From Acidimicrobiaceae bacterium (GTDB lineage Bacteria > Actinomycetota > Acidimicrobiia > Acidimicrobiales > MedAcidi-G1): DNA of 62,315 nucleotides. Below the pieces are notes generated by a model. That model searched no databases, was not told the origin of the DNA, and was given only the letters and a program-made list of their open reading frames with translations. The stretch lies in assembly GCA_002716285.1 (NCBI GenBank), contig PBAM01000036.1, positions 1 through 62,315 on the forward strand, read 5' to 3'. This document shows positions 1 to 41,494 of the stretch, piece after piece. Numbering within the stretch: position 1 is the stretch's first letter; each line of letters starts with the position of its first letter. The position numbers were made by a program, and so were the translations under genes.

Positions 1-110
1 CACCCAGACTCAAGAAACCACCACTACACAAGAAACCACAACCACCCAGACTCAAGAAACCACCACTACACAAGAAACCACAACCACCCAGACTCAAGAA
101 ACCACCACTA
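1..110 (+). repeat. 42-bp tandem repeat coding a Thr-rich linker
   Basis: The unit beginning cacccagactcaagaaacca recurs at 1, 43 and 85, giving about 2.6 near-perfect copies at a 42-base period, and it runs in from the left edge. In frame it encodes a 14-residue TQTQETTTTQETTT-like unit. Because the period is a multiple of three, copy-number change keeps the reading frame. It is a coding low-complexity repeat, not a CRISPR. Confidence 0.9.
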
Positions 111-1537
111 CCTCTGGGAGTGTATCTAGCCCTTCGCAAGCATTAGAACCTGAACTTTCTTTGGCCACTCCTGATGCCACACTCAAAGTCTGGATGGTCA
201 ACGAAGACGGAGAAACGGCTGCTGTAATAAAAAATGGATCTTCTATTCCTGTAAACATCCAGTCAGTCGCATTGACAGAAATTGACGGTGAACTGTTTGT
301 CAAAATCGCAACTTCAGGTATCCCCAACTATGTAAGTGTGATTGATGAAAAAACTGAGACCTTTTTATCAGAGCGCCCACTTGCAAGTAGGGATTTCCGC
401 GAAGGTAGACCTTTGGTAGGTGTCGGTTCCAGAGTGCAGTTTGGTGAAGACATTGGTTACAACTCGACTGGTTGTCAAAATCTTCCGGGAACCGGTTACG
501 GCTACTGGCCGCCTGGTCCTGTTTGTCCCGAAAATCAGGAAATTGAAACTACATTCGCTATATACCCGACAGAAACAATCGAAAATAACTCCGAAACTCA
601 AGGCCTTGGTTCAATAGGTCTATGGGTTAACGGGGTTGCCGTTTTCGGTTGGGGTGACGGACAGTCATGGCAACAAGAGGGCAACTGGCACAATATTGCA
701 GCAATTGCCGAAGAATACGACCTTGATATATGCCCTGGCCATTCAGCTCAAGGCACCTATCATCACCATTCACATCCAATTTGTTTAGCTGAACAACTTG
801 GGGACATCGGAGATTCTCATTCACCCGTGTACGGATTTGCAATTGACGGAGTTCCGATAGCAGGTCCCTGGGTTGACAGTGGTCTACTAGCCCGATCCTC
901 TTGGTTGCCTAGAGATTACAGCAATGACGATTCGGTCACCGGCTGTGGTGAAATTGGAAAAAGAACATGTCACCTAATTGACCAATTGAATCCCAGCGCA
1001 GGAACTGTTGAAATAAACGCTTCAGCCCCAAGCACAAGCGATGTTGTCACCTCTATGTCAGGGAACAACTTTGTCGCACTATCAGGTTTCTATATGGAAG
1101 ATTGGTATTACGAATCATCCCTGAATGACAACTCCCTGCAATCACTAGACGAGCACAATGGTCATTTCGGGGAACTTCCCGGATACACAGACCCTTTATA
1201 CCACTACCACATAACACGAGAACGAAATGATGATGGCTCTTTTTTCGAGGTTTTCCCTTACTACATTGGTCCTACTTTTTACGGGGAAATAAAAACAGTC
1301 CTCGGCAACGGTCCTCCTGGTGCTGGACAACAGGGACCCCCACCAGGTGTTGGACAACAAAGCGCTCCCCCAGGAGGTGGAAGACCGGACTTACCTGCGG
1401 TAGCACAAGCACTAGGCGTGGATGTGACGGATCTTATGAATGCTCTCGGGCCACCACCTCCTGACCTTCAGTCCGCTGCAATCGCCTTAAACGTACCCTT
1501 GGAAGAACTTCAGATATTAATGGGACCTCCTAGGTAA
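2..1537 (+). CDS. YHYH-domain secreted protein, 5' truncated
   Basis: The frame is open to the left edge, so the start and probably a secretion signal lie outside the window. The TTG at 161 used by the ORF track is internal. Order: a Thr/Gln/Glu-rich linker (encoded by the 42-bp repeat), a globular part, then YHYH-type motifs: GTYHHHSHP, YGFAIDGVPI and, near residue 400, YHYHIT. The His clusters suggest metal binding, but the function of the YHYH family is unknown. The C-terminus is Gly/Pro/Gln-rich and ends in two similar units of about 25 residues (ALGVDVTDLMNALGPP and ALNVPLEELQILMGPP). Export with a Thr-rich stalk is inferred from the linker and from similar linkers in the lipoprotein at 13440. 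The family call is fairly confident; the role is unknown. Confidence 0.8.
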   Translation, partial: TQTQETTTTQETTTTQTQETTTTQETTTTQTQETTTTSGSVSSPSQALEPELSLATPDATLKVWMVNEDGETAAVIKNGSSIPVNIQSVALTEIDGELFVKIATSGIPNYVSVIDEKTETFLSERPLASRDFREGRPLVGVGSRVQFGEDIGYNSTGCQNLPGTGYGYWPPGPVCPENQEIETTFAIYPTETIENNSETQGLGSIGLWVNGVAVFGWGDGQSWQQEGNWHNIAAIAEEYDLDICPGHSAQGTYHHHSHPICLAEQLGDIGDSHSPVYGFAIDGVPIAGPWVDSGLLARSSWLPRDYSNDDSVTGCGEIGKRTCHLIDQLNPSAGTVEINASAPSTSDVVTSMSGNNFVALSGFYMEDWYYESSLNDNSLQSLDEHNGHFGELPGYTDPLYHYHITRERNDDGSFFEVFPYYIGPTFYGEIKTVLGNGPPGAGQQGPPPGVGQQSAPPGGGRPDLPAVAQALGVDVTDLMNALGPPPPDLQSAAIALNVPLEELQILMGPPR

Positions 1538-3875: not shown

Positions 3876-4580
3876 TCATTCGCTGATTTCACTTACACGT
3901 CCGTCCCTTAAAGAAGTAAGTAAAACTCCCGCTGAAATCGCAGCCGTCTCAGACCTTAGAACAGAGCCGCCCAGTGAAAAACACTCTCTTCCATCTACCT
4001 CTTCAGGAGTCCAACCGCCTTCTGGGCCTATTATCAGACAAGAATGAGTGAGGGACAGTTTTTTACCACCCGGGTGGGCTAAAGCAATCCCTTCTCGCCC
4101 TTTCAAAGCAGCCAATGGCGTAGTTCTCAACACCTCTGGGATGTATCCCTGCCTCGACTGCATGGCCGCTTCTCTGGCTATGCGATTGAAACGCTTTTCG
4201 CTTTCAATTATTTTATTTTCACCCCACTGAACTACCGAACGCTGTGCCACCACTGGAAAAATTTTGTTTACCCCTAATTCAGTTAACTTTTGCACAACCA
4301 TTTCCGGCTTACCTTTTTTAATGAGAGCGAAACCAATTGTTATTTCTATTTCTGGTTTAGGTTCAAAAAAAATTTCTTCGGTTGGCTCGAGTGGAGGACC
4401 AAAAACACATTCCCTCCAGCTCCCTTTAGCATCTGAGACTGTTATCCCGTCTCCCGACCTGAGACGCAAAACTTTTCCAAAATGATGAATATCGTCGTCA
4501 CTCAAGCAGGGGTTATCAATATCATCTACAAATGCATGAGGAAGATTTAGATCAATTAGAGAAATGTCTGAATCTCTCAA
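3876..4580 (-). CDS. rsmE: 16S rRNA m3U1498 methyltransferase RsmE
   Basis: The 234-residue length is normal for RsmE, a SPOUT-class (knotted) methyltransferase that methylates N3 of U1498 in 16S rRNA. The C-terminal knot motifs are clear: [16 protein letters not shown], then [16 protein letters not shown]. The N-terminal PUA-like domain carries [13 protein letters not shown] and the middle has [19 protein letters not shown]. The start overlaps the dnaJ stop by 4 bases (ATGA), the usual dnaJ-rsmE arrangement, so the two are translationally coupled. Confidence 0.95.
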
Positions 4581-5677
4581 CTGAATGCCGATCGGAATTT
4601 ACCAATTATTCCTTCATCAGGAGGGCTCACTTCATCATCTCTGGACCCTGCAAAATCTCTTATGAACTTCTCCTCCGTTGGAGTCAGATCTTTAGGGGTT
4701 TCCACTACTACTTCAATAAGCAGATCCCCTCTTCCTCGACCCTGCAAGTGAGGAACACCTCTTCCACGTATTCTCATCACTTGCCCACTTTCGATGCCTT
4801 TTGGGATCACGATGGTTTCCGAACCATCAAGTGTTTCGATCTCCATTTCAACTCCAAGGATTGCTTGCGTCATTTGCACTGGAAGTCTTCGAAGTAGGTC
4901 GTAGCCGTTGCGTTCAAAATATTGATGATCTTGGACTCTTATCTGAACATAGAGATCACCGGCGGGGCCTCCCCATGGCCCAACAGCCCCTCTGCCGGTA
5001 AGTCGTAATGTCGTCCCATCGTCTACCCCCGCCGTCACTTGAACTGAAAAAGAGTCATTTACAACGTTTCTTCCCTCACCTCCACACTCTTCGCAAGGGT
5101 CTGGTATCACCCAGCCCATTCCCCCACACGCATTACATGCAACCGAGGTCATCATTTGACCCAAAAGTGACTGCCTCACCTGTTGAACCTGACCACTACC
5201 GTTGCAAGAATCACAGGTATCACGACTTGAACCTTTGGAAGCACCAGTCGCTTCGCAAGTATTACACGCCAAAGCTGTTTTGATCTCAATTTCTTTTTCA
5301 CAACCGAACACTGCTTCCGCAAATTCAAGGTTTAGTAAAGTTTCCAAATCTTGACCCTGCATAGGTCCAGTTCTTCTTCGTGATTGTGAAAACCCTGAAC
5401 CGAAAAAAGATTCGAAAATATCCCCTATTCCACCAAAAGGGTCGCCCATCGATGAGGCGCTCCCGACATCCCCAAAGCGGTCATAACGAGATCTCTTTTC
5501 AGGGTCTGAAAGCACTTCATACGCGAATGCGACCTCTTTGAATTTTTCTTCAGCTTCCGGGTCGTCTGGATTCGCATCAGGATGATATTCGCGCGCTAAC
5601 CGACGATAAGACCTCTTTATCTCTTCCGTTGAGGCATTTCGCTGCACCTGCAGCACTTCATATGGGTCACTGGACAT
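4577..5677 (-). CDS. dnaJ: Chaperone DnaJ
   Basis: Hsp40 co-chaperone of DnaK, 366 residues. It has an N-terminal J domain with HPD in the helix II-III loop ([11 protein letters not shown]), a short Gly/Phe-like linker ([15 protein letters not shown]), and four zinc-finger CxxCxGxG-type repeats ([33 protein letters not shown]). Two beta-sandwich peptide-binding domains follow ([15 protein letters not shown]). It lies directly downstream of hrcA (4-base gap) and overlaps rsmE. No dnaK or grpE is in the window. Confidence 0.97.
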
Positions 5678-5681
5678 TTTT

Positions 5682-6686
5682 CTAACCCTCGGTTAAATGG
5701 TCACCTAAACTCCGGCCGACAATTCCGACTGTCGCAAGTGCTTGAGTATAGTCCATTCTTGTTGGACCGAGGATACCAATCGATCCTGCTGCCTCACCAT
5801 CAATTTCGTACGGAGCAACAACAAGGGAACATTCAGCAAGGTGATCGACACCTGTTTCAGTTCCTATGACAACGCTGAGCCCGCGATCGATAACACCTCT
5901 AATCAAACTGACCACAATCATTTGACGTTCTAACAGGTCTAAAACTTTTCTAATGTCTTCAGGTTCTGTGAGGGAGCCTGCAAGAACTGACGTGCCCCCT
6001 ACATAAACAGTTTCCTTTGATTGAACTAAGGAGGTGAGAGTTTTCTCGACCTCTCGCACCAGATAATCAACGTTGGCGTTTCCGCTTAGTGGAACTTCCG
6101 GCAGAGAACCCAGTCGAAAGCCTCTGAGGTGTTTCGAAAGAAAATGATTCACTTCGTCTAGCTCAGTTTCAGTCACGAATACTTCTTTCGAAATATCCAG
6201 TGAATGCTTTTCCACCACTCCGTTCGAGGTAACTAAAACTAGCAGAATTTGATCAAGTGAAAGATCGACCAGATGCACCGAACGTACCGTCTGATGGTCG
6301 GAGTCTGGTGAAAGTACAACACCGGCACTCCCAGTTAAAGCCGCTAAAAAATTGCTTGTTTCCTGCAACATTTGTTCAATCTCAATGTGAGACCTACCAA
6401 AAAAAGACTTGATCTGTTGATTTTCAACCCGGTCAAGTCTTACAGGACCCAGCAAATTGTCAACGAAAAAACGGTATGCCTTTTCAGTAGGAATTCGACC
6501 CGCTGAAGTGTGAGGTTGATCCAAATAGCCTTCTGACTCTAAAAGTGCCATCTCGTTTCTGATCGTCGAAGACGAAACGTCTACTGATTCGGATCTTGCA
6601 ACCAAACTCGAACCGACTGGTTGAGCAGTTTCTATGTACGCTTCAACAACAGCGCCTAAAATTCCTGCTTTTCTTTCGTCTAGCAT
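5682..6686 (-). CDS. hrcA: Heat-inducible transcription repressor HrcA
   Basis: Winged-helix repressor of heat-shock genes that binds CIRCE elements. The N-terminus has [25 protein letters not shown] and [18 protein letters not shown] (recognition helix and wing); the C-terminus ends [12 protein letters not shown]. The ORF-track start at 6797 adds 37 residues that overlap lepA and do not resemble HrcA, so I start at the ATG at 6686 (MLDERKAG). That gives 334 residues, near the family norm, with a GGGAG-like site about 13 bases upstream. I did not see a CIRCE inverted repeat in front of it. Confidence 0.93.
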
Positions 6687-6738
6687 TCTTCGGATGTTAC
6701 TCCCATCATCGCTATTTAGGATTATATATTTATTGTTT

Positions 6739-8523
6739 CTATTCTTCGAGACTAAGAGCGGAAACAAAAGCCTCTTGAGGAACGTCAACACGACCAATTG
6801 ACTTCATCTTTCTTTTGCCTTGCTTCTGCTTTTCCAATAGCTTTCGCTTTCTTGTTATATCTCCCCCATAAAGTTTCGCTGTTACATCTTTTCGATATGC
6901 CCTGACAGTTTCACGGGCGATTATCCGGCCGCCTATCGTGGCCTGTATTGGAACTTCAAATTGCTGACGAGGAATCAATTCTTTCAGTCTTTCTGCCATT
7001 TTTCGACCATATTCATAAGAGGCGTCACGGTGTACAACTGCGCTAAAAGCGTCAACAGATTCTCCTTGCAATAAGATGTCTACTCTCACAAGGTCAGATT
7101 TCATGTAACCAGCCGGCTCATAATCAAGACTTGCGTAACCTTGAGTTCTACTTTTCAATTGATCGAAGAAATTGAGAACTACCTCCGCTAAAGGAAGTTG
7201 ATATTTCAGTTCTATACGTTCAGGGGACAAGTATGACAGCTTGTCCAGTTCACCCCGCCGTCCTTGGCAAAGTTCCATTAGTGTCCCTGTGTACTCCGCT
7301 GGAGATATCAAAGTGGTAGACAGCCATGGTTCTTCTATCGCCGAGATCTCCCCCGCTGATGGAAGATCGCACGGATTATCGATTTCTTCCACTTTTCCGC
7401 TCGCATGGATCACACGGTATTTAACTGAAGGCGCCGTTGTAATTAAATTAAGATCAAATTCCCTTTCAAGACGTTCTCGAACTATCTCCATGTGCAACAA
7501 ACCTAAAAAACCACACCTAAAGCCGAAACCGAGAGCAGATGAAGTGTCAGGTTCAAAAGTGAAACTTGAATCGTTAAGTCTGAGCTTTTCTAACGCATCT
7601 CTCAAATCTCCGAAATCATCTCCTTCCATCGGATACAGACCGCTAAAAACCATTGGTTTTGGTTCTTGATATCCGGATAATGCTGACTGACTCCCACCAT
7701 TCGTAGTTGTTATCGTTTCACCTGATCGAGCTTCCCCGACATCTTTGACCCCAGCAAGAACATAACCTACTTCGCCCGGTCCGAGACTTTTAACTGGTGT
7801 CATCTCAGGACGCCAGACTCCAACCTCATCAAGTTGGTGATTCGTTCCAGCCTGCATGAATTTAATAGACATTCCGGCATCCAAACGACCTTGCATTATC
7901 CGAACCGAAGAAACGACGCCTCGATACTGGTCAAAATGACTGTCAAAGACAAGTGCCTGAAGTGGCAGGTCTTCGTTGGCTTCGGGAGAAGGTGTTTTTT
8001 CAACAACTACGTCAAGAAGTTCCGAAACCCCTTCACCAGTTTTTGCACTAATCCGAAAAATTTCATCGGTTGGTATGCCTAGGGCTTTTTCTATTTCTTC
8101 CGCGTACCGGTCAGGTTCTGCGGCTGGTAAATCTATCTTGTTCAATACGGCCACGATTTCCAGGTCATGTTCGAGTGCCTGGTAACAGTTAGCCAGAGTT
8201 TGTGCTTCTATTCCTTGCGCTGCGTCGACTACTAATATCACTCCTTCACATGCAGCTAATGATCGGCTTACTTCATAGCCGAAATCAACGTGACCGGGTG
8301 TATCTATAAGGTTAATTACCGAGTCTTTCCAATCGAGTCGCACGCTTTGTAGCTTTATAGTTATCCCTCTCTCACGTTCCAAGTCCATAGAGTCGAGATA
8401 TTGATCTCGCATGTTTCTTTCATCCACAGCCCCACAAAGCTCCAGCATGCGGTCAGCCAGTGTCGACTTACCATGATCTATGTGAGCAATGATCGACGTA
8501 TTGCACATCTTTTTATTAGTCAT
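6739..8523 (-). CDS. lepA: Elongation factor 4 (LepA)
   Basis: Ribosomal back-translocase GTPase, 594 residues. G motifs are [14 protein letters not shown] (G1), RERGITI (G2), DTPGHVDF (G3) and VLNKIDLP (G4). The LepA-specific C-terminal domain is present with [19 protein letters not shown] and [10 protein letters not shown]. It starts the minus-strand run lepA-hrcA-dnaJ-rsmE and diverges from rpsT across about 130 bases, an arrangement (rpsT/lepA) common in actinobacteria. Confidence 0.97.
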
Positions 8524-35195: not shown

Positions 35196-36092
35196 TCAGA
35201 CATCCAAATATCTAGTTACGGCAAAAGCCGAGCCGATCATTCCAATCGCTGCCCCGATAACAAGTATCCAAATACTTGTATTCCATACAAATCCGTCTGG
35301 AACGGCAAATCCTCTAAAAAGAGGAACTGCTTCTGATTCTTGGAAGTACGCAAGAACCCTGCTGTCAACAACAAATAAAGCTGGAACTGCGAGTCCCGCT
35401 CCCATTAATCCATGGATAGTTCCTTCCAGCATAAATGGTATTCGTATGAACCAATTTGTTGCACCCACAAGTTTCATAACTTCTATTTCAGTTTTACGAG
35501 CTGAAATCGCTGTGAAAACTGTGTTCAATATGAGTACAGCCGAAACTGCTACAAGAACTATTGCTGCTAGTAAAAGAGCCTGACTGACTCTTGTTGAAAA
35601 ATCTTCTATTTGTCGAATCGCCTCTGTTGCAGTTGCAACCTCCTTGACGCCAGGCTGTTCTGAGAATTGTCTTGCCAATTCCGTGACATTGTCTGCGTCT
35701 GGATCACTTGGAACAATCCGGTAAGAGGGCGGCATTATTTCAGGAGTTACACTCTCCACCAATTCAGGCTTGTCGACGAAAAGCTCACGGAACTCTTCAT
35801 ACGCTGCAAATTTATCGACATAGACATATTCCTTTATTGCAGGACTTGTGTCGAGAACTTTTCTGATTGCCTCATTTTGATTTTCCAACGCATCGGCATT
35901 CATAAAGACAATAAATTCGACCCCTTCTTGGAATTGTGCTGTTGCCTGATCCGCACCTTCTCTGATGAGTAAAGAAGAACCGACTAATGCTAAAGAAATA
36001 GCCACAGTCAAGATGGCGGCAAGAGTTAAGCTGAGGTTTCGCCAGAGGCTTACAAAAGTCTCACGTATGAAGTACCAAAATCGAAAAATCAT
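35196..36092 (-). CDS. ftsX: Cell division protein FtsX
   Basis: 298 residues, four membrane segments: one at the N-terminus (LTLAAILTVAISLALVGSS), three in the C-terminal third (LLLAAIVLVAVSAVLILNTV and others), with a large extracytoplasmic loop containing EYVYVDKFAAYEEFRELF. With FtsE it forms an ABC-like complex that activates peptidoglycan hydrolases at the septum. ftsE lies 33 bases upstream in the same direction. Confidence 0.93.
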   Translation of the reverse strand: MIFRFWYFIRETFVSLWRNLSLTLAAILTVAISLALVGSSLLIREGADQATAQFQEGVEFIVFMNADALENQNEAIRKVLDTSPAIKEYVYVDKFAAYEEFRELFVDKPELVESVTPEIMPPSYRIVPSDPDADNVTELARQFSEQPGVKEVATATEAIRQIEDFSTRVSQALLLAAIVLVAVSAVLILNTVFTAISARKTEIEVMKLVGATNWFIRIPFMLEGTIHGLMGAGLAVPALFVVDSRVLAYFQESEAVPLFRGFAVPDGFVWNTSIWILVIGAAIGMIGSAFAVTRYLDV

Positions 36093-36125
36093 CTCAGCGC
36101 AACCCTCTGATTATGCGATATGCCT

Positions 36126-36803
36126 TCATTCGTACACTCCACGTGATTCATCACGAACAAGCATTCCTCTGTCCAACTCAATCACTCGACGTCTCATTGT
36201 GTCCACGATGCTACGGTCGTGAGTGGCCATAACGACAGTAGTTCCACTGCGATTTATTCTGTCTAAAAGTCTCATAATGCCTACAGAAGTTGCGGGGTCT
36301 AAATTTCCTGTTGGTTCATCTGCCAACAGTATTAGTGGTCTGTTTACGAAAGCTCTGGCAATTGAGACTCTTTGTTGTTCACCGCCTGAAAGTTCTTCTG
36401 GAAGACGATCTGCTTTTCTTGAAAGACCAACAAGTTCTAAAATAGCGGGAACTTGACGCTTAATGATTGGTCTAGGTCTTCCTATAACCTCCAAAGCAAA
36501 AGCAACGTTTTCTGTAACAGTCTTTTTTGGTAAAAGTTTGTAATCCTGAAATACATAGCCGATATTACGACGCAGGTAAGGGACTTTCCATGAGCTAAGG
36601 GAACTAACGTCCTTTCCGGCAACCAGTATTTTCCCTGCATCCGGAACTTCTTCCCTGTTTATTAACCTTATAAAAGTTGATTTTCCTGAACCTGAAGGGC
36701 CTACCAGAAATACAAACTCACCCCTCTGGATTTCTGCAGATGCTTCCCTTAGAGCCACCACTTCACCCTTAAAGGTCTTCGTGACAGTTTCAAATCGAAT
36801 CAT
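36126..36803 (-). CDS. ftsE: Cell division ATP-binding protein FtsE
   Basis: ABC ATPase of 225 residues: Walker [17 protein letters not shown]-loop FQDYKLLP, signature [15 protein letters not shown], Walker [15 protein letters not shown] and switch His ATHDRSIV. Hydrolyses ATP to drive FtsX. GGGAGG 5 bases before the ATG supports the start. The 150 bases upstream (36804-36953, to prfB) hold no gene and probably the ftsEX promoter. Confidence 0.95.
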
Positions 36804-36953
36804 TTTGACCTCCCATCACGTGCTCTTCGTAAAAAACAGAAGACAACTATCTATTTCAGTCGATGAACATCTCATAAAAGTAACTTTCGGCACTGCGGAG
36901 AAGGTACCAGAAAGGAAACAAGAATACATTTCATTGGCGTCTCTTCATTCAAT

Positions 36954-38054
36954 TTATCTCGCTCGATTCCAACGTAGGTAAGCCTCAATAAAGTCATCTA
37001 GGTCACCATCTAGCACTCTAGCGACATCCCCAATCTCAAAATCTGTCCTCAAGTCTTTTACCATTTGATAAGGCTGCAACACATATGAACGTATTTGACT
37101 TCCAAAATCAACATTTGACTGCTTTCCACTTATTTCAGCAATTTGCTCGTCGCGACGCTGCCTCTCGAGGTCAAGCAGTTTTGCTGCCAGCATTTGCATC
37201 GCTCTGTCTCGGTTCTGATGCTGGCTTCTCTCATTTTGGCAAGAAGTAACTATTCCGGTTGGAATATGGGTTATCCGTACAGCAGAGTCGGTTACATTCA
37301 CATGCTGGCCTCCTGCTCCTGAAGATCTATAAGTGTCGATGCGTAACTCTGTTTCATCAATATCTACTTGCTCCGTAACTTTTTCGAAGAAAGGAACTAC
37401 TTGAAAAGAAGCGAAGGCTGTATGTCTCTTTGATTCTTTATTAAATGGTGATATACGCACCAGCCTATGGACACCTCTTTCACTTTGAAGAAACCCAAAA
37501 GAATGACGGCCTCGAACAATAAATTCAGCTGAGCTGATTCCTGCCTCAGTACCAGGTGATACTGAATCTAGTTCGATTTTTAACCCCTTATTCTCAGCCC
37601 ATCTTGTATACATTCGTAGTAACATTTCAGCCCAATCTTGAGCGTCGGTCCCACCAGCTCCTGATTGAATCTGGCAGACTGCATCTTCAACGTCATATTC
37701 CCCAGAAAGAAGACTTTGAACCTCCAAAGCATCAAAGTCAATTGCGGTTTCAGAAATCAGTCTTTCAATCTCATGATCCAAACTTTGGTCTTTTTCCTCT
37801 GCAGCCATTTCAATTAAAGTCTCAGCTTCCTCTATTCGAGTTTCTAAAGTTGAATAACGCTCTAGATCCTCAACCACTCGTGCCAGGTCGGTCTGGACTT
37901 GACGACCTTTATCCTGATCGTTCCAAAGCTCAGGGTCGGAAGATTCCTGTTCTAAAGAAAGTTTTCTATCTTTCAGTTCGTCGATCTTGAGATATTTTTC
38001 TGCCTCGCTGAGACGTTGACGAAGAAGGAGGATTTCTTCCGAAAAATCATTCAT
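36954..38054 (-). CDS. prfB: Peptide chain release factor 2
   Basis: 366-residue RF2. Tripeptide codon-recognition region in VRISPFNKESKRHTAFASF (SPF) and the peptidyl-hydrolysing GGQ in YRSSGAGGQHVNVTDSAV. Recognises UGA and UAA. The coding sequence is uninterrupted: the programmed +1 frameshift with an early in-frame UGA found in many RF2 genes is absent. RF2 competes at UGA codons, relevant to the recoding proposed at 59865 and 61244. Confidence 0.96.
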   Translation of the reverse strand: MNDFSEEILLLRQRLSEAEKYLKIDELKDRKLSLEQESSDPELWNDQDKGRQVQTDLARVVEDLERYSTLETRIEEAETLIEMAAEEKDQSLDHEIERLISETAIDFDALEVQSLLSGEYDVEDAVCQIQSGAGGTDAQDWAEMLLRMYTRWAENKGLKIELDSVSPGTEAGISSAEFIVRGRHSFGFLQSERGVHRLVRISPFNKESKRHTAFASFQVVPFFEKVTEQVDIDETELRIDTYRSSGAGGQHVNVTDSAVRITHIPTGIVTSCQNERSQHQNRDRAMQMLAAKLLDLERQRRDEQIAEISGKQSNVDFGSQIRSYVLQPYQMVKDLRTDFEIGDVARVLDGDLDDFIEAYLRWNRAR

Positions 38055-38110
38055 TTATAATTATTTCTCCTAAAAGCAGTAACGGTCAATTCCAATAATT
38101 GACCCTGATA

Positions 38111-40699
38111 TCAACGGCCGTGACAATGTTTGAATTTACGTCCAGACCCACAGTGGCAAGGTGAATTTCTAGGAGTTGACTCTTTCTCATCTTTTATTTT
38201 CTGCTCCGTTATGACGTGTTTACTTTCTTTCACTTCAGTTGGGACACCTGCTGCCATGGCGACAGCTGCCGCTCCTGTCACAGGGCCTTCCGGGGCGCTT
38301 GTCGTAACCTCTTCAGGTTTTCGGTCTTCACTTTCAGAAGATGACAACTGAACCCGCATTATGTAGCGGACCAAATCTCTCTGCAAAAGTTCTGTTAACT
38401 CTTGAAAAAGTTCAAAACCCTCTCTTTGCCATTCGGTAGTTGGATCTTTTTGTGCCATTGCTCTTAAGTGGATACCGTCGCGCAAGTGATCCATTTCATA
38501 AAGGTGTTCTTTCCACCTTTGATCAATTATCCTCAACATGACCTGACGCTCAACTTCACGTAAAGTTTCCAAACCTAAATCTTTTTCTCTGGAATCGAAA
38601 GCCTCGAGAGAACTTTCTGTTAAAAGTTTTTCCAGTTGCGAAATGTTTTGAATTGAATCCAAGTCACCCGGAGTAATACTGTTGGGCCAGTAGCCATTTA
38701 TTTCATTTAATAACCCGGTTAAATCCCATTCTTCAGGTAGCTCTTCAGCGCAAAATGTTTCAAGTGTTTCACTGACAACCCCATCGATTGCTTCTATTAC
38801 AGAGTCTCTCAGATCGGCACCATTGAGTATTTCATTTCGTCTTCTGTAGATGACTTTCCTCTGCTCATTCATAACTTCGTCATACTTCAAAACATTTTTT
38901 CTAGCTTCAGCATTTTTTTGCTCTACCGTGGTTTGAGCACGCTCTATAGCTTTTGAGACCATTTTTGATTCGATTGGCACATCTTCGGGAAGGGTTTTCT
39001 CCATCACATTTTTCAGAGCTCCTGAAGCAAAAAGCCTCATAAGCTCATCTTCGAGCGATAAGTAGAAACGGCTCTCACCTACATCTCCTTGTCGACCGCT
39101 ACGCCCTCTTAGCTGATTGTCGATTCTTCGACTTTCATGGCGTTCTGTACCCAAAACATATAGGCCTCCGCTTTCAAGCACTTTTTTTCCCAAAGTTGAC
39201 GGGTTTCCTCCGAGCATTATGTCCACGCCTCTTCCAGCCATATTCGTGGCAACCGTAACAGCACCTGGGCGTCCAGCTTGTGAAACTATGTCAGCTTCTC
39301 TGAAGTGTTGTTTTGCATTTAGAACTTCGTGGCCGATACCTCGTTTTTCCAGCTCACGTGAAATTTTCTCTGATTTTTCAACTGAAATGGTTCCTACGAG
39401 TACGGGTTGACCCTTTGATTGTCTTTCTACGATGTCGCTCACTAAAGCCTGGAACTTACCTGCTTCAGTCTTATACACAAGGTCGGGACGATCGTCTCTA
39501 ACCATTGGCTTATGCGTCGGAATAGTTACTACTTGCAGGCCGTAGATACCCGACAACTCAGCGGCTTCAGTTGAGGCCGTTCCGGTCATACCTGAAAGTT
39601 TTTCATACATGCGGAAATAGTTCTGCAGGGTAATTGTAGCGAGAGTCTGGTTTTCTTCTTTTACAGAAACGCTCTCCTTTGCTTCAACAGCTTGATGTAT
39701 TCCATCTGACCATCTTCGCCCTTCTAGTACACGTCCTGTGAACTCATCAACAATTCTGACTTCACCATCGGTAACGATGTAGTCGCGATCTTTTTGATAA
39801 AGCTCTTTTGCCTTGATCGCAGCATGCAACTGATGAACCAGATTGGATGAAACCTGATCATAAAGGTTTTCAACTCCTAGAGCTTTTTCGACTGCTCGCA
39901 CACCTTCTTCTGTAGGGGCAATTATGCGTTTCTCTTCATCAACATCGTAATGTAAGTCGCGTTTTAAATTTCTAACTACTGATGAAAATTTTTGGTAAAG
40001 CTCCAAGGCGTCACTTGCCTTACCACTAATTATCAGAGGTGTTCTAGCCTCATCAATAAGAATTGAATCCACCTCATCAACAATGCAAAAAGCGTGGCCG
40101 CGTTGACTGAGTTCCTCTTTGCTTAAAGCCATGTTGTCGCGCAGATAGTCGAAACCGAGTTCATTATTTGTTCCATAAGTGATGTCGGATAAATAAGCTT
40201 GTCTTTTTTCAATTCGATCAGAGACAGAAGGTACGACCAGTCCAACAGATAAGCCAAGCCATTTGTGAAGCTGGCCCATCCATTCACTATCTCTAGTGGC
40301 TAAATAATCATTGACTGTGCAAAGATGAACTCCCCTGCCTGTTAAACCATTTAAATATGCTGCAAGAGTCGATACGAGAGTTTTGCCTTCACCAGTTCTC
40401 ATTTCCGCCACCCATCCGAGGTGTAGGGCTACGCCTCCCATCATTTGAACGTCGTAATGTCTTTGTCCGATGACCCGACGTGCAGCTTCCCGGACAACAG
40501 CAAAAGCTTCAACTAGTAAATCATTAAGATCTTCGCCCTTTTCCAGCCTTTGTTTAAACTCGCCTGTTTTAGCTTGCAGTGCGTGATCTGACAGTTTCTC
40601 TATTTCAGGCTCGAGGGAATTTATATCTGGAACAAGAGATTCAATAGCTTTAAGTTTTTTACCCTCACCACTTCGAAGAACGCTCGACAAAACACTCAT
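38111..40699 (-). CDS. secA: Protein translocase ATPase SecA
   Basis: 862 residues, the motor of Sec-dependent secretion. Walker [24 protein letters not shown]-box [65 protein letters not shown], and a C-terminal zinc-binding tail [16 protein letters not shown]. The Zn tail and 860-residue length indicate the main SecA, not a SecA2. A BldD-like gene follows upstream by 33 bases in the same direction. Confidence 0.97.
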
Positions 40700-40732
40700 G
40701 GTTATTAAGACTATCTGCTGGTATCAGGGGTC

Positions 40733-41266
40733 TCAGCCTGAAATTGCATCTCGAAGTAAATTTAACTCTGCTAGACGTTGAGGCGCATCTTCTACGGTCG
40801 TGCCTATTATCGCCGCCAAGGCCTGCAGATCATCACGTCTAATAGTTAATACCCGACCGTTAAAATCTTGCCTTTTAACTTGAATAATTTTTAGATAACG
40901 GTCTATTACTGCAGATTCTGGAGCTTTAGATTCACTTAGCTTTGTTAAATCTATAACGATGCTTCGCTCAGTTGTATCGACATCCAGCTGAGAGCGAAAA
41001 TTCTCGTCCAGTTCATTCAAAGCATCTTCACTAGGCAGTAGTTGATCGACGGGTACGTTGTAGAAATTTGCAAGTCTTTGAAGGCGCGGTACTGAGATAT
41101 CTCTTTCTGCTCTTTCATATGCACCTAGGACAGATGCTTTGAATTCAGCTTCAGATCTTGCTTCTACTTCTTGCAATGAAAGACGCTTCTGTTTACGTAT
41201 AGAACGGATTCTTGCTCCTACAAGACTCCTGTAAGCCTTGTCTTGATCTTCTGAATCCTTTTCCAT
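40733..41266 (-). CDS. bldD: BldD-like c-di-GMP-responsive regulator
   Basis: 177 residues from the ATG at 41266, which has GGAAG 8 bases upstream (the TTG at 41269 is rejected). An N-terminal HTH (SLQEVEARSEAEFKASVLGAYERAERDIS) and a C-terminal effector domain with SIVIDLTKLSE and LKIIQVKRQDFNGRVLTIRR. The Streptomyces c-di-GMP signature RxD-x8-RxxD is exact here: R132-Q-D134, eight residues, R143-x-x-D146. It ends LQALAAIIGTTVEDAPQRLAE. BldD represses development genes in Streptomyces; the role in this organism is unknown. Confidence 0.85.
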   Translation of the reverse strand: MEKDSEDQDKAYRSLVGARIRSIRKQKRLSLQEVEARSEAEFKASVLGAYERAERDISVPRLQRLANFYNVPVDQLLPSEDALNELDENFRSQLDVDTTERSIVIDLTKLSESKAPESAVIDRYLKIIQVKRQDFNGRVLTIRRDDLQALAAIIGTTVEDAPQRLAELNLLRDAISG

Positions 41267-41494
41267 CAATTATCTTCCAGTCTGCCAGTAGGAATCATTT
41301 TATTACTCTCTGTGGTCATAGTATGCCGAAGAGTGAGAATAGTTTATATTTTTTTCCTTCAACAACACATTGAGTGGTCATGGGATTTTATTTAGATCCT
41401 ATTTTCGCACTTCCAACGTAATTACTGACTATAAAACTCATCCAAGACTTACAGTAATTAAGCTTGTAATGTTGCTGTTAGGAACGGGAGTAAT

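Follow-up and report, generated by a model that had tools for sequence, protein, structure and literature searches.

A BldD-family regulator with a probable link to c-di-GMP in planktonic marine Acidimicrobiales

BldD is the textbook c-di-GMP brake on sporulation. In its published structure, the guanines of the ligand are read by R114, R125 and D128, the second c-di-GMP dimer is held by D116, and Lys84 and Arg130 touch the phosphates (PMC4151990). Tschowri et al. (2014) reported that, among sporulating actinomycetes, every one with a BldD orthologue also encodes GGDEF proteins (PMC4151990). The presence of the regulator outside this group was documented by Chater & Chandra (2013), who judged the bldD orthologues of Acidimicrobium convincing and inferred that very early actinobacteria already possessed the gene, with a role in simple, non-developmental cells (PMC4255298); that paper predates the discovery of c-di-GMP as a BldD ligand and mentions neither the signature nor cyclases. 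A precedent for a Streptomyces developmental switch with an older role unrelated to sporulation is the RsiG-WhiG c-di-GMP switch of non-sporulating Rubrobacter (PMC8325347), although this is an anti-sigma/sigma pair, with an unrelated protein and c-di-GMP motif. The MedAcidi-G1 family has been described as marine planktonic Acidimicrobiales in a study that does not mention BldD (PMC10205998), and our literature search turned up no study treating c-di-GMP together with BldD in Acidimicrobiia.

Here we analyse a 62,315-nucleotide stretch (the window) from a marine member of the Acidimicrobiales belonging to MedAcidi-G1, whose genome assembly amounts to 1.48 Mb in 39 contigs and is 80% complete. 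The closest loci, with 93-95% protein identity, belong to MedAcidi-G1 and other marine Acidimicrobiales. The gene under study and its parts are as follows:

40733..41266, minus strand, stop included: BldD-family transcription factor of 177 aa (ORF, profile, homology and model matches)
41039..41209, minus strand: HTH (XRE) DNA-binding domain, residues 20-76 (HTH_3 match, model)
40754..40960, minus strand: BldD-like C-terminal domain (PF21179), residues 103-171 (Pfam match, model)
40829..40873, minus strand: c-di-GMP signature R132-x-D134-x8-R143-x-x-D146 (motif match, alignment)

The 177 codons run from an ATG at 41266 to a stop at 40733, and an in-frame TTG one codon 5' of the ATG would give 178 aa. 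Both halves of the protein score above the curated cut-offs (70.9 bits against 27 for BldD-like_C, PF21179; 36.8 against 23 for HTH_3), which places it in the BldD-like family, and the fold comparison agrees. Searches with phmmer retrieved the BldD DNA-binding domain (2ewt) and the structures of the BldD C-terminal domain with c-di-GMP (4oaz, 5khd). For each half of the AlphaFold model (pLDDT 82), Foldseek found a solved BldD domain: the HTH matches 4ob4/2ewt with 51% identity and an rmsd of 0.5-0.7, and the C-terminal domain matches that of BldD with an rmsd of about 1.7-2.6. The original prediction of a BldD-like regulator was therefore right as to reading frame, strand and coordinates, and the domains and structures bear it out. 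On the NCBIfam BldD equivalog NF050110 the protein obtains 137 bits, under the cut-off of 250, and a Streptomyces-like member 308; by Streptomyces-like we mean group f84, which has large genomes, together with neighbouring groups, their BldD lying above that cut-off. The protein is thus a BldD-family member below the curated equivalog level. It is 35-41% identical to Streptomyces-like members and falls in a separate clade, and it shares with Streptomyces BldD the two-domain layout, the folds of both domains and the signature. It is of the same class as the Acidimicrobium orthologue; the kind of regulator was already known, and what is new is this member.

The signature, residues 132-146 (RQDFNGRVLTIRRDD), reads R132-Q-D134-FNGRVLTI-R143-R-D-D146 and corresponds exactly to RXD-X8-RXXD, as had been noticed beforehand. 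Such a pattern arises by chance in 1.5% of shuffles of the protein, a question that is moot because the match is homologous. When 57 homologs, the most distant at 35% identity, were aligned, with L037 left out on account of a stop codon, only six residues of the C-terminal domain are invariant (D106, R132, D134, N136, R143 and D146), and the four signature residues are among them. To counter a bias towards good copies, the family sample was enlarged with 60 extra stretches carrying weak or second-copy matches of wide spread. With these weak matches included on purpose, the signature is whole in 151 of 164 members; R114, R125 and D128 do not vary wherever they can be read, and all 12 readable losses fall on D116, replaced by E, N, S or R. 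Altered D116 residues were found in BldD-like proteins at L126, L127, L131, L132, L155-L158, L180 and L183; in light of the BldD structure, such variants might hold one c-di-GMP dimer only.

Outside the signature, the equivalents of Ile110 and Asn118 are unchanged and Ser123 has become Thr. The counterpart of Lys84 is S103, with R102 beside it, and that of Arg130 is Q148. The guanine-reading part thus appears exact in sequence and both phosphate contacts outside the signature replaced, so the affinity of the protein for c-di-GMP may be lower than that of BldD.

The absence of diguanylate cyclases had been named in the original prediction as a finding that would speak against it. In the genome that carries this BldD, the GGDEF and EAL domains each occur just once, on the same PAS-GGDEF-EAL protein of 815 aa (contig C33), in which the RPDD I-site and the GGDEF, EAL, NVS, EFTES, DDFGTG, KID and EGVE motifs are intact. 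Likewise, three relatives in the host's family (95-97% complete) encode exactly one PAS-GGDEF-EAL protein each. Neither PilZ nor MshEN domains turned up in the host genome or its family. Within what could be searched, this would be a one-enzyme, one-receptor system, and receptors of other types may exist; Streptomyces has several cyclases instead of one. Such a minimal system, in which one enzyme holds both activities and a single receptor is recognisable, could allow the original function of BldD to be found. In genome G000, the 3' end of a tRNA-Leu(TAG) gene is directly followed by the start of the only GGDEF-EAL gene (L001:667-3197). The three relatives share this layout, and co-transcription of the two genes is possible.

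Presence of the sensing domain was then compared with that of the messenger enzyme in 148 Acidimicrobiales genomes scored for the BldD C-terminal domain (found in 117) and GGDEF (found in 127). Both occur in 117 genomes, GGDEF alone in 10 and neither in 21, and the C-terminal domain never stands alone (Fisher 2.7e-18, uncorrected for relatedness). Across the phylum, with no phylogenetic correction, the same counts are 93 with both, 0 with the domain only, 179 with GGDEF only and 25 with neither. All 21 GGDEF-less genomes of the order, which are spread over nine families, lack the sensing domain, and in three of these families (f35, f51 and f54) relatives retain both. Since hrcA, a close neighbour of bldD, persists in 16 of the 21, the absence of the domain is not simply due to missing sequence. 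The loss can be seen at the locus itself: in f54, a GGDEF-bearing genome has rsmE-bldD-hemN where a GGDEF-less one has rsmE-hemN, and f51 shows a similar pattern. In f35, two GGDEF-less genomes retain the DNA-binding half of BldD at the dnaJ locus:

L223:2395-2811 (G034) and L224:2398-2829 (G118), plus strand: DBD-only BldD genes

The DNA-binding half of these proteins is 65-67% identical to that of the window protein and is followed by some 55 aa of unrelated sequence where the C-terminal domain would be; a GGDEF-bearing f35 relative has this domain, with its signature intact. The sequence upstream of the DBD-only genes showed no operator repeat. Genomes that lack the messenger and keep the DNA-binding half amount to a natural domain-loss experiment. 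This GGDEF-linked presence and loss is the strongest evidence that the C-terminal domain may sense c-di-GMP outside sporulators too. Two f59 genomes (G059 and G100; L245, L246) also contain DBD-only BldD relatives, in open frames of 151 and 156 aa, together with two weak GGDEF matches each. Six GGDEF-bearing Acidimicrobiales have no BldD (G142, G064, G028, G078, G114 and G036, the first two checked at the locus), and in these c-di-GMP must act via other receptors.

Taken together, the protein is likely to be a BldD-family c-di-GMP-dependent switch set by the single PAS-GGDEF-EAL enzyme, which would determine the level of the messenger. At high c-di-GMP, an oligomer of the ligand, read by R132, D134, R143 and D146, would clamp two BldD C-terminal domains; the clamped dimer would bind inverted repeats, two of them in the bldD promoter, and repress transcription, and at low c-di-GMP the dimer would release DNA. 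What we infer in this scheme is the binding of c-di-GMP with its four-to-two stoichiometry, the repression, and the nature of any other targets. The switch originally predicted is well supported by the presence of a cyclase, by the fact that the C-terminal domain never occurs without GGDEF and by its loss along with GGDEF, but is weakened by the change in both phosphate contacts. That change would suit a BldD relative that in the host genus binds its ligand more weakly or binds a different one, either another nucleotide or a c-di-GMP dimer only, the phosphate contacts being gone: the eight close genomes all have S103 in place of Lys84, while the change of Arg130 to Q148 extends beyond these eight to all further members sampled from the clade around them. 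We find this improbable, however, since the guanine-reading residues and the equivalents of Ile110 and Asn118 are all unchanged, the host genus retains a complete cyclase and phosphodiesterase, and the GGDEF rule holds in the family with Gln148 as well.

The long-standing synteny with rsmE/dnaJ, and with secA-prfB-ftsEX in many relatives, would in turn suit an HTH regulator that needs no ligand, has a housekeeping role around secA-prfB or dnaJ and carries the motif for structural reasons only; yet hrcA persists in GGDEF-less genomes where the BldD C-terminal domain does not, f35 lost that domain only, and across the phylum the neighbours vary while the signature stays, which makes a housekeeping regulator distinctly improbable. 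Even less credible is control of an unrecognised spore-like or dormancy programme resembling that of Streptomyces BldD: the BldD homologs studied to date do act in development (PMC4151990), but no SsgA-family gene was found in four genomes of the host family, and the small genomes are those of planktonic cells (PMC10205998).

The surroundings of the c-di-GMP-dependent switch favoured here differ from those of Streptomyces BldD, as the Streptomyces-like locus examined has no rsmE/dnaJ or secA-prfB neighbours. The neighbours identified by gene order are:

38111..40699, minus strand: secA, next gene downstream of bldD
36954..38054, minus strand: prfB, conserved neighbour
3876..8523, minus strand: lepA-hrcA-dnaJ-rsmE cluster, directly 5' of bldD in most relatives

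The reported position next to secA is correct, this being the next downstream gene on the same strand. The order bldD-secA-prfB-ftsE-ftsX is kept in many marine Acidimicrobiales, most marine relatives have lepA-hrcA-dnaJ-rsmE-bldD-secA-prfB-ftsE-ftsX, and deeper lineages retain rsmE-bldD without secA. In the host genus, lepA-hrcA-dnaJ-rsmE (3876-8523) and bldD-secA-prfB-ftsEX (35196-41269) lie about 30 kb apart on the same strand.

At the promoter level, two repeats are found upstream of the gene:

41364..41378, minus strand: candidate BldD operator 1, ACCAC-TCAAT-GTGTT, a repeat 62 bp from operator 2
41302..41316, minus strand: candidate BldD operator 2, ACCAC-AGAGA-GTAAT, in the most conserved non-coding block 5' of bldD in eight close genomes

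That block reads ACCAC(A/G)GAGAGT, and a second ACCAC-N5-GT-like copy lies about 60-62 bp farther up in 6 of the 8 genomes. In the window, ACCAC-N5-GTNNT matches three times, twice at bldD. The conserved promoter repeats are inverted, follow the pattern CCAC-N5-GTGG and are spaced like the BldD box of Streptomyces, TNAC-N5-GTNA. Among non-redundant relatives, CAC-N5-GTG occurs in 22 of 50 bldD promoters, against a frequency of 3.0% in control windows; the excess sits at spacing 5, other spacings giving 1-7 loci. As a positive control, Streptomyces-like bldD promoters contained TNAC-N5-GTNA in 10 of 11 cases in the tested interval and in 11 of 11 within 300 nt. Together these two results indicate that the spacing of the AC...GT core is shared, so that the AC-N5-GT geometry is common to both systems, and that the flanking base differs, C in Acidimicrobiales relatives and T in Streptomyces-like members. 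No exact TNAC-N5-GTNA box lies within 500 nt upstream of the window bldD, and such boxes are not in excess across the window. EM motif discovery on bldD promoters converged on GACCAC-N5-GTGGTC. Its likelihood, rejected as motif support, did not exceed that of control windows; these contain conserved coding sequence, for which reason the spacing and window-frequency tests were relied on instead. As the promoter repeats have BldD-box spacing, autoregulation of bldD through the candidate operators is likely and, by analogy with BldD, would involve repression rather than activation. The region upstream of bldD showed no sigma-70-like promoter. Genome-wide, a search with one operator pattern gave 43 near-palindromes against 38 for the reversed-pattern control, no real excess, and nearly all matches lay inside genes, so no target beyond bldD could be named.

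As for the history of the family, a tree of 112 members places the window protein in a large Acidimicrobiia clade, apart from the Streptomyces-like one; the tree is unrooted and support on key branches is moderate (SH-aLRT 83-93). The host is probably non-sporulating, judging by its lifestyle and by the absence of SsgA-family genes from its genome (80% complete) and from those of three relatives of its family; six such genes occur in the large-genome relative f84, whose BldD passes the equivalog cut-off. A function unrelated to sporulation, as originally predicted, is plausible on these grounds, though less firmly so given the incompleteness of the genome and a regulon in which only bldD can be named. 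The wide spread of the family in the phylum agrees with the claim of an ancestral switch, but the tree is unrooted and of moderate support, and the idea is already in print. What appears to be new is the coupling to c-di-GMP outside sporulators, with the co-loss, sensor-loss and operator evidence for it.

In a broad, probably non-sporulating group, a sensing domain that strictly tracks the messenger enzyme is comparative evidence for a switch that arose before sporulation, and this linkage suggests a BldD switch older than its role in that process. We put forward tentatively, and would stop just short of calling probable, a wider proposal: that the BldD-c-di-GMP switch predates actinobacterial sporulation, is autoregulated and has a minimal one-enzyme, one-receptor form in MedAcidi-G1 plankton; that on loss of c-di-GMP the regulator is deleted or stripped to a constitutive DNA-binding protein; and that the operator has drifted between CCAC-N5-GTGG and TNAC-N5-GTNA with its spacing fixed. 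A second, rarer BldD paralog, present in some Acidimicrobiales, falls nearer the Streptomyces-like clade (L005, L018, L127, L133, L135 and L136). Elsewhere in the window, positions 2-1534 (plus strand) hold an open-ended frame, cut by the window edge, whose product starts with TQTQETTTTQETTTT repeats and is a putative low-complexity linker or surface protein.
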